DNA from: Fomes fomentarius | Taxonomy: Eukaryota; Basidiomycota; Agaricomycetes; Polyporales; Polyporaceae | Assembly: GCA_022606135.1 (NCBI GenBank) | Contig: JABYQN010000010.1 | Span: 1,054,001-1,118,000, forward strand | DNA: 64,000 nucleotides | Direction: 5' to 3' | Shown here: positions 15,051 to 18,496 of the stretch, one piece after another | Position numbering within the stretch: position 1 is the stretch's first letter | Layout of the letters: each line of letters begins with the position of its first letter | Notes under the pieces: model-generated | Told to the model about the DNA's origin: nothing | Seen by the model: only the letters and a program-made list of their open reading frames with translations | Database searches by the model: none | Program-made: the position numbers and the translations under genes

Positions 15051-16728
15051 ATGGGTGCCTGCATGTCTTCCGGCCCCGTCGAAATCAGCGAGGAGGATAA
15101 GAGGTTGCACAGGGAGGCAGAAAAGAGCCTCAAGGAGGTCCGTCCCCTTCCTCTCTCTCTCCCGCTACCCCTCACGAGCCTATGCGTGCATACACAGGCC
15201 AAGCTCAAGCTCCAGAAGCAAGTCAAGGTGCGTTTTCCGACTCTTCATCTCCCCCCTCCAAGCGACGTCGTCCTCAGCCGACTCAATCAGGTCCTCCTCC
15301 TCGGTTCCGGAGACTCGGGCAAATCCACCATCCTCAAGCAGATGCGCCTCATCCACCGCGTCCCCTTCTCTACACAAGAGATTGAGTCCTACCGCCAGCT
15401 TGTTTTCAACAACCTCACACATGGCCTCAAATACGTCATTGACGCCATGGAAGACATGGAGCTCGAGGTTCTCGACGACCATCGCGATCTCGTCACCATG
15501 GTCGAGGAGGCGTCTGACATCAAGGACGGAGAACCCTTTCCTGAGGACTATCTCACTGTGCTCAAGCAACTATGGGAGGATCCCAACGTTCAGGCAGCAT
15601 ACGCTCGTGGTAACGAGGCGGCGTTGCCCGAGAAGTGTGTATCCTGCCATCTCTTCACGTCGGTTACATTCATGACGTTTTTTTTGCCTCTCGCAGCCTC
15701 AACTACTACTTCGCGGATCTCGACCGGTTATTTGAGCCTTCGTACGTACCGAACGAACAGGACATCGTTCATGCGCGTGCACGGACAATCGGTATCACCG
15801 AGACAGTATTCACGCTTCGCGACCACGACATGCTCATGGTCGATGTCGGCGGTCAGAAGAGTGAGCGCAGGAAGTGGATTCACTGTTTCCAGGATGTTAC
15901 CAGCATACTGTTCTTGGTCAGCTTGAGCGGTTACGACCAGTGTCTGGTGGAGGACAAGGATGCTGTACGTCACTGTCGCTGTCGTGTCTGTCCGCGTAAC
16001 TGAATGACGCCCATCCAGAACCAAATGCAAGATGCGATGACTATCTGGGACTCAATATGTCATTCGCAATGGTTTAAGCAAACGTCGATCGTGAGTGCAT
16101 TCTGATTCCTCGGTGGATTCGCATGCGCCGAGTCTAACGACCAACTCAAGATCCTATTCCTGAACAAGAACGACCTGTTCGAGAAGAAGGTTGTGAATTC
16201 GGATATTAAGAACTTCTTCCCCGTGCGTACTCCATCCATGCTGTGTATCGAACACCTCGTGCTGACGCTTCCCCTCCAGGACTATGATGGTGAGGCGAGT
16301 GACGCCAAGGCTGGCCGGGAGTACTTCAAGAAGCGGTTCGCAAGGCTGGCACAGAAGGCCAACGCGAAGGAGAGGGAGATTTACATTCAGTACGTCATTG
16401 TTTCCATGTCTTGCGGATCGTTCTTCCGCCGTATACTGACTGTTCCAAGCGTGACGACTGCGACGGACACTGCCATGCTCCGAGTAGTGATGGCTGCTGT
16501 AGAAGGTGCGTTTCCATATCGCCTGTGTGATCACGCGATTGAATGCTGACGGGGCTTATTTGCAGAGTGAGTGTTTCCTTATTTATATTTCCACCCACCC
16601 TTTCTACGCATCTTGTGCTTTTTTGCCCCCCTTTGGGCCTGGCCTCCTCAAATCGCAATGGTGCGCTTACGGATGCGCCCCTCAGCATTATTCTTCGAAA
16701 CAGCCTTGAAACCGCAGCATTGATCTAG
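15051..16728 (+). CDS. Heterotrimeric G-protein alpha subunit
   Basis: GTP-binding signal transducer acting at the plasma membrane below seven-helix receptors. Ten coding exons give 360 aa: 15051-15137, 15198-15227, 15291-15634, 15697-15964, 16019-16090, 16151-16222, 16280-16389, 16450-16505, 16566 and 16686-16728. The N-terminus MGACMS carries myristoylation (Gly2) and palmitoylation (Cys4) signals. G boxes: GSGDSGKS, switch I RARTIGITE, DVGGQKSERRKWIHCF, FLNKNDLF and TTATDTAML. The C-terminus DIILRNSLETAALI aligns residue for residue with the canonical alpha-5 tail but lacks the -4 Cys, so it would not be a pertussis-toxin substrate. To read this tail, base A16566 must be an exon on its own. 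The length matches the family (350-360 aa). Upstream DNA is CT-rich. Confidence 0.95.
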
Positions 16729-18496
16729 TCGCTCTCCGCCCGTGCCTTTTTATCGGTTCGATATCTATCGTTATCGTTTTGTTGCGTGTGTGTGTACTGT
16801 AATACGGTGGTTTTAACATGGCGTTCCCCACGGCACATTCCCTCTGCATGTTCCCTTCTCTTCCTATGCCGCACAGCCTTCACGTTTTCATCACGCTCTT
16901 TTTGCACCCTCTTTATTGTCTCTTCCTTCCTGCGAGAGTTATAACTCATCATGCCTGTTTCTTTTATATGGTTGGTTGCGACCAAATTCGCCGGTCTTAC
17001 CCCACGCGCGCGCGTCTCCTCTCCGCCCTCCGTTCCGGTGTCCTGTGCAAACCCCCACGGTGGATACATGTTCGGCATCCGCCTTCTCCGGGGAATTCGC
17101 GTTCCACATTCGCTCGACGATGTGCGCCCACGGTCGACAGCACGATCATTAGCAAGAATGTGAGTACTGCCTCCTTATATACACTTGTCCTTGCCCCGCG
17201 TGTGCCCTCGCCGCTTCTGCCGATATATTGCTGACATCATCCCCTTCCCCCTGACTGCGCGTCCTTGCAGATTCGCGAAATCATGCTATGATCAACCGGC
17301 CCCCCAATGACTAGCCACGACAATTCGACAACAACCTCCCTGCCAGACTGGCCCTACCTACTACCTTGATCCTCGGGGGCAGAGGGCCCGGGTGTTGGTG
17401 GGTACCTCCATCGCAGGCGGGGGCACCCGGTTCTTAGCACTTCGTGGGCGGGGATGCATCTTTATATGCGCTGCGCGCGCCAGTCTCATCGAGCAACAGA
17501 AGCACGAGTCAGGCGACCCGAGGCGCTGCCACATTTGGCCGCCCCCGTCCGCTGCTTCTATCACTCGTTTCCAAATTCCTTGTTTACATTCAATTTCGTC
17601 CGCAGTTCCTCGCCGCCACCACCACCACCACCAACACCACCGACACTGCCTTTCTTGTTTGTTTTTCTTTTGTTTTCATATTGCTTCTTCCTCCTCGCCG
17701 CTGCATCATATTCGCCTTCTCATCGACGTTCGCGTTCGTTCGCATTTGTTTCCTTACACCCTGCTTTCGTAACTAATGCCCCCTGCCAGTCCGCCCTGCA
17801 TCCCGCCCGTCGACGTTTACCTAATGCCTTCCATTCTGTACATGTGCACATATCTGTCCCATTCTCCCGCCTCCACGCTTCGCACGTCCATTCATCCCTT
17901 CCCTTCAGCATGTCTGCACTACCCTTTCCTCCACACCCCATGCGCTGATGTCTACATATTATTATGCGGGCGGACACTATCTGCCTCCCTTTGCACTTGT
18001 TCTCGTGTTGCTATCCTTCTTTTGTCTCTTCCCTCATTCATCACTCGCGTACGGTCCACGACCCAGTCTCATTGTTTCTTCACTAGCTATAGCGCGAACA
18101 CGTCTCCACATCTCCAATCCCAGCCTTATAAACTCAATTGCCAATCGTGCTCGATCACCGATAATCTCATTGTTGCGCACCTGGACTACGCCCAGAAACT
18201 CTGCGTCGTTCGGGTTCGTCCATAAGTAGCGGACTGAAGCCTGAGGAGCACTTGCTTAGCGTCGCATGTGTTGCTATGCCCCTCGCGCAAGCGATGCGCC
18301 TCATGCTGATATACTTAGCACCAACCGAGCTTCGCCTATACAATCCGAGCCAGGCAGCCATCATGGACGCATTCGATGCATGGCGGACACCAACCACACG
18401 CAACCGTGCTACCGTGACGCACGGCCATCAATATCTGGGACTTCTTCCTCAGACCACTGTGAGACCGGACGTCTCCCTTCCTTAATAATCTCAAAG

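Follow-up and report, generated by a model that had tools for sequence, protein, structure and literature searches.

The window analysed here, a stretch of 64,000 nt within a contig of 2,321,218 bases from Fomes fomentarius (placed by taxonomy lookup in the Polyporales, Agaricomycetes), carries at 15051–16728 of its forward strand a gene for a G-protein alpha subunit (Gα), whose ten coding exons, one of them a single base, join to encode a product of 360 aa (Table 1). The gene, annotated as 'alpha subunit 4 / GPA2-like', is a canonical fungal Gα, and its product matches PF00503 at 399.8 bits (positions 3–333 of the 333 in the profile), contains GSGDSGKS, DVGGQ, NKND and TDT, and from TDT through the Asp residue discussed below aligns without a gap with mammalian Gα (the Gt/Gi chimera in the PDB). 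Introns 1–7 are 54–63 nt long, with donors of the form GTNNGT and acceptors CAG or AAG. A scan of 16400–17400 for promoters and terminators returned none, its models being bacterial and uninformative for a fungus. A DNA search of the assembly matched the gene once, and the idea of an extra copy or allele in the assembly was rejected on that basis.

Table 1. Features of the Gα gene and of its terminal exon sets A and B, in window coordinates
Feature	Position	Strand	Length and basis
Exon 1, start codon	15051-15137	+	87 nt, computed splice product
Exon 2	15198-15227	+	30 nt
Exon 3, P-loop GSGDSGKS	15291-15634	+	344 nt
Exon 4, switch II DVGGQ	15697-15964	+	268 nt
Exon 5	16019-16090	+	72 nt
Exon 6, NKND	16151-16222	+	72 nt
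Exon 7	16280-16389	+	110 nt
Exon 8, TDT motif; last base is the G of the Asp codon	16450-16505	+	56 nt
Intron 8, GTGCGT...TTGCAG, CTGAC branch-like motif close to the 3' end	16506-16565	+	60 nt
One-nucleotide exon A, middle base of the Asp codon	16566	+	product, homologs, paralogs
Intron to tail A, GTGAGT...CCTCAG	16567-16685	+	119 nt
Alternative terminal exon A: last Asp base, then IILRNSLETAALI and stop	16686-16728	+	43 nt
Alternative intron to tail B, donor GTGAGT common with tail A, acceptor GACAG	16567-17140	+	574 nt
Tail B exon 1: last Asp base, then TIISKN	17141-17159	+	19 nt; homologs
Intron within tail B, GTGAGT...TTGCAG	17160-17270	+	111 nt
Tail B exon 2: IREIML and stop	17271-17291	+	21 nt; Lactarius model P0149 ends GTIRDIML

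Exon 8 closes with GTAGAAG at 16505, and its last G, the lone A at 16566 and the C that opens the terminal exon join to a single Asp codon, both introns flanking the A being canonical GT–AG introns; when the A is included the product ends VE-D-IILRNSLETAALI. As computed, skipping of the A on the way to tail A gives a product ending VEALFFETALKPQH, removal of the first intron of the pair alone leads at once to VEE and a stop, and retention of that intron (16506–16565) gives the ending VEGAFPYRLCDHAIEC. The last of these is the exact end of the deposited Fomes protein P0001, which is identical to our query over 95% of the query; that is, P0001 retains the intron. The base is needed for the frame and for the conserved Asp, as is evident both from the products of skipping and retention and from the VED found in every one of the 78 transcript-type homologs listed (defined below). 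The sequence-only reading, whose coordinates and letters were exact on re-check (16505, 16566, the introns of 60 and 119 nt, 16686–16728), had described an Asp codon spread over three exons, a product of 360 aa with the expected spacing between TDT and the tail, an altered tail upon skipping and an immediate stop upon removal of the first intron alone, and in all these respects it is borne out, the last form being also encountered in 32 gene models. Its further statement that no other AG yields a workable frame was too strong: a donor at 16510 used with the acceptor at 16685 stays in frame (361 aa, VEGAIILRN...), as does a 62-nt intron ending at 16567, after which the frame runs on across the 119-nt stretch (399 aa). 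We reject this read-through, which is seen in no transcript-type homolog listed. Separately, the models P0082, P0088, P0093 and P0147 carry extra residues ahead of tail A, and a read-through of the 399-aa kind would be possible on paper.

With a donor score built on seven introns (themselves 7.1–10.2 bits), the donor at 16506 reaches 10.2 bits, that at 16510 (GTTTCC) −6.2 bits and that at 16567 5.5 bits; the last is only moderate, lying below all seven scoring introns, and is equalled or exceeded by unused GTs nearby (5.5 bits at 16742 and 6.0 bits at 17122). The motif YAGNGTRAGT occurs once in the window, against 1.87 times in shuffled sequence, and is no rarer than chance, while the PF00503 score hardly separates the two forms (399.8 bits if the A is included, 396.3 bits if it is not). 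Since the motif is common, in-frame alternatives exist and the difference in Pfam score is small, the case for the one-base exon rests on comparison, that is, on frame, homologs and paralogs.

Three protein searches, in lists clustered at 90% identity, had 190 distinct proteins among the matches listed; as these are a part of all matches and similar proteins are clustered, rare isoforms, skipped forms included, could be hidden. These homologs were divided by source and contig size into 78 of transcript type (only jgi, lgn or ena contigs of at most 3.2 kb with the protein in one frame) and 112 others, nearly all on genome contigs. On 46 of the 78 transcript-type contigs the room beside the coding part is less than the 595 nt that introns occupy in the Fomes gene, and the other 32 could house introns of Fomes length; from source and size, we infer that the 78 small contigs are best read as transcripts. 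Among the 190 proteins listed, VE-D followed by a complete tail is found in all 78 of the transcript-type homologs and in none of the 112 other models. Of the latter, 32 end in VEE and a stop, which fits removal of the first intron followed by reading of A+GTGA as GAG TGA; a further 13 have the correct tail and length but carry G at the position of the D, as would be expected of an extra base absorbed as a mismatch; seven are one residue longer, matching a donor 4 nt downstream; and two (P0073 and P0162) start the tail with D and continue with unrelated letters. Such wrong ends are what a missed one-base exon would predict. The models ending in VEE span, among others, Bondarzewia (Russulales), Punctularia (Corticiales), Exidia (Auriculariales) and Tulasnella (Cantharellales), and also include Ganoderma, Trametes and Grifola (Polyporales). 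Since at least five orders are represented among these models, the simplest reading of the relatives' protein ends is that the one-base exon is probably ancestral to the Agaricomycetes.

Additionally, we find that the Fomes gene encodes two terminal exon sets behind the common donor at 16567, the second of which, tail B, was absent from the sequence-only account. Joined to the A, the tail B exons give a product of 359 aa ending DTIISKNIREIML, and as computed the frame is lost in tail B, too, when the A is left out. Both tails occur among the transcript-type homologs, where, with the tail counted from D and the classes divided by length alone, tail A (14 residues, mostly ending AALI) accounts for 46 of 78 and tail B (the DTIISKNIREIML type) for 32 of 78, 31 of these having 13 residues and one having 12. 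To relate the tails to the rest of the protein we used a body tree of 88 rows, all drawn from searches one and two (90 assignable tails, two fragments dropped; the 30 proteins new in the third search were left out), with tails labelled from patterns, and by hand for P0111, P0118 and P0131. Two old gene lineages would lead one to expect about one change of tail on this tree; we found 25, and in 200 shuffles of the labels the mean was 27.8 (range 21–33), with 32 shuffles at or below 25. Moreover, the transcript-type protein P0044 (tail A) and the Lactarius tabidus genome model P0149, which ends in the last tail B exon, are identical at 337 of 337 aligned body residues, and the Suillus fuscotomentosus genome model P0114 (tail A) agrees with the transcript-type P0129 (tail B) at 345 of 348; these matching bodies with different tails do not come from one named strain, and a tail A and tail B transcript pair of a single strain would be masked by the clustering at 90% identity. 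Considering that the tails do not track the body lineage and that near-identical bodies are found with either tail, tails A and B are probably alternative ends of one gene, which would thus specify two G-alphas with distinct receptor-contact ends.

The alternative that fares best against this reading, and one we nevertheless hold to be improbable, is that most species have two paralogous genes, one for each tail, and that the tail B exons of Fomes are a relic. It would be in keeping with tail B being known in Fomes from DNA alone, and with the acceptor at 17140 having no YTNAY branch-like motif before it (a lack shared by one ordinary intron of the gene); against it, the tail B exons are intact and in frame in Fomes, the tail labels are scattered over the body tree like shuffled ones, and in the Lactarius and Suillus pairs the tails differ although the bodies are identical or nearly so.

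Very unlikely, in our view, is a single longer intron running from the donor at 16510 to 16685, which would dispense with the one-base exon altogether. Such an intron has GT–AG ends and keeps the frame, and the equivalent choice is the one made in the seven models that are one residue longer; yet all 46 transcript-type proteins with tail A have D plus 13 residues and none is longer, the GTTTCC donor scores far below that at 16506, and the extra residue would fall where the alignment with the solved Gα has no gap. Less likely again is a stwintron, in which an internal intron (16506–16567) would split the donor of an outer one, G16505 and TGAGT rebuilding it upon removal: although the rebuilt donor does read GTGAGT, the frame is wrong (product ending VEHYSSKQP), the proper one is not restored, and no such form is found in any of the 78 transcript-type homologs listed.

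Within the Fomes genome, 43 exon-level PF00503 matches were grouped manually into about 18 Gα-like loci (on contigs C1, C2, C4, C5, C9, C10, C12 and C17). The one-base exon is present in three of them, namely the window gene, L002/L021 (C1; region of L021, 4447000–4453500) and L003/L022 (C17; region of L022, 319000–326000), the latter two reading CAG/A/GTGAGT at the position of the Asp codon of the window gene. The introns beside the A are 61 and 93 nt in L002/L021 (joined frame ...AVRDAILQRNLNKSAL...) and 73 and 81 nt in L003/L022 (joined frame ...ALEDVILSLNLGNMAC...). Both paralogs have a C-terminus longer than usual and are strongly diverged from the window gene (34.7% and 35.5% identity, respectively, over the longest tblastn stretches, introns included); DVGGQ is altered in both (LVGDTVGE and DAGGRR), and a lack of GTPase activity is possible in these two Gα-like proteins. 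A simple pattern search of the 6.5–7 kb fetched around L021 and L022 gave no tail B. At ten loci (L001, L005, L006, L007, L010, L011, L012, L014, L015 and L018) the tail is unbroken at this codon, as judged by eye in frame translations, with L013, L016, L017, L019 and L020 left out; L007 and L012 are near-alike around the tail. A sequencing or assembly error, by which a missing base would disguise one ordinary intron, is the least credible account: an indel error does typically show itself as a shift by one base, but the arrangement is repeated in two diverged paralogs of the genome and the 32 models ending in VEE come nearly all from separately assembled species. In view of the 78 of 78 transcript-type homologs, the 0 of 112 other models and the two paralogs, we conclude that the comparisons strongly support both the one-base exon at 16566 and the need for it in forming the Gα tail.

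The explanation that best accommodates these findings, and in which we have high confidence, is a constitutive one-base exon followed by either of two terminal exon sets that exclude each other. Of this, the anatomy, the frame, the transcript-type homologs, the paralogs and the encoding of both tails are observed, while the order of splicing, the use of either form in Fomes RNA and a change in receptor choice as the outcome are what we infer. According to this explanation the A at 16566 would always be included and would supply the middle base of the conserved Asp that opens the receptor-contact tail, after which the donor GTGAGT at 16567 would be joined either to set A, for a tail of 14 residues, or to set B, for one of 13. 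Since the two edges of so small an exon can hardly be engaged by the spliceosome simultaneously, the introns around the A are probably removed stepwise, by intron definition, as has been argued for Arabidopsis APC11 (PMC4674806). The 60-nt intron is short and strong (donor of 10.2 bits, CTGAC near its end), and were it removed first, the A would become attached upstream as ...GAAGA/GTGAGT, with the three letters before the donor as they are in the genome. The donor thus freed could then pick the acceptor that closes the intron of 119 nt (tail A) or the more distant one that closes the intron of 574 nt (tail B), and the latter may be the weaker, regulated one. Two Gα proteins would result, alike in body but unlike at the receptor-coupling end. 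As Gα contacts its receptor mainly through the tail, forms with tails A and B should differ in receptor choice.

The sequence-only reading had proposed that the A is essential for the receptor-coupling tail and that its skipping, or retention of an intron, could act as a switch. The first part stands, by the comparisons given above; the second has no support, since skipped or retained forms are found in none of the 78 transcript-type proteins listed and occur in gene models alone. A likelier switch, to judge from the encoded exons and the homologs, would be the choice between terminal exon sets A and B after the one-base exon. We suggest, as a tentative extension that is possible rather than probable, that this holds class-wide in mushrooms, with the A always included, its donor picking the receptor-contact tail depending on the state of the cell (mating or fruiting, for example), and the choice being set by which of the introns around the A is removed first. 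Were this so, it would constitute a very old and conserved single-nucleotide exon together with an alternative-tail Gα system outside animals.

A mitochondrial one-base exon is reportedly present in placozoan cox1. For nuclear genes, our comparisons draw on extracts of the papers cited. In Arabidopsis APC11 a constitutive single-nucleotide exon was tested with GFP constructs (PMC4674806); as in the Fomes gene, it is a one-base A between two introns, required for the frame and missed by annotation. Unlike the Fomes exon, which is known here from sequence, it has this experimental backing; on the other hand, both rice APC11 genes are intronless, so the APC11 exon is not shared as widely, and the extract describes no alternative exons downstream in this plant gene (PMC4674806). 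The one-nucleotide exon of Fusarium CYP621A was described as the second of its kind anywhere and the first fungal one (PMC12940212). It, too, lies in a fungal nuclear gene, provides the central base of a conserved codon (for Gly, as against Asp in Gα) and is accompanied by wrong gene models; it differs in being a G within AGGGT, in a P450 and its Fusarium orthologs, whereas the Gα exon is an A within AGAGTGAGT, appears to be Agaricomycetes-wide, is found in three paralogous genes and is common to two alternative tails (PMC12940212). With regard to the tails, the vertebrate GNAO gene has mutually exclusive terminal exons 7–8, and the Gα tail was argued there to be the main receptor contact (PMC5896119). 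GNAO and the Fomes gene thus resemble each other in that alternative terminal exons alter the receptor-coupling end of one Gα gene; in GNAO the exon pairs arose by local duplication in vertebrates, with no one-base exon described in the extract, while the Fomes gene belongs to another kingdom and its tails differ in length and in number of exons (PMC5896119). In Trichoderma Xlr2, likewise a fungal gene, the protein changes with the use of a microexon, but there inclusion is the switch, whereas the Gα microexon looks constitutive (PMC11121469). The extract of a paper on fungal Gα (PMC8242266) describes no tail isoforms; in our searches of the open-licence PMC literature we found no report of alternative Gα tails in basidiomycetes or mushrooms, nor of the combination of a one-base exon common to two Gα tails.

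Finally, these observations suggest that a one-base exon can persist in a core signalling gene across several fungal orders and is no freak, and the Gα gene lends itself to testing how an exon of minimal size is dealt with by the spliceosome. If one mushroom Gα has two tails that face the receptor, this would also bear on how few Gα genes can serve many receptors. Genome annotation tends to get this exon wrong, and since the right end is missing from all 112 of the models examined that are genome-derived or otherwise not of transcript type, lists of fungal Gα proteins and tail-based classifications built on such models need repair. Other short exons of the Gα gene seem, from the protein ends and bodies compared, to be missed elsewhere too; when set against P0044, the Lactarius model P0149 is without ten residues that match the short exon 2 (30 nt, 15198–15227).
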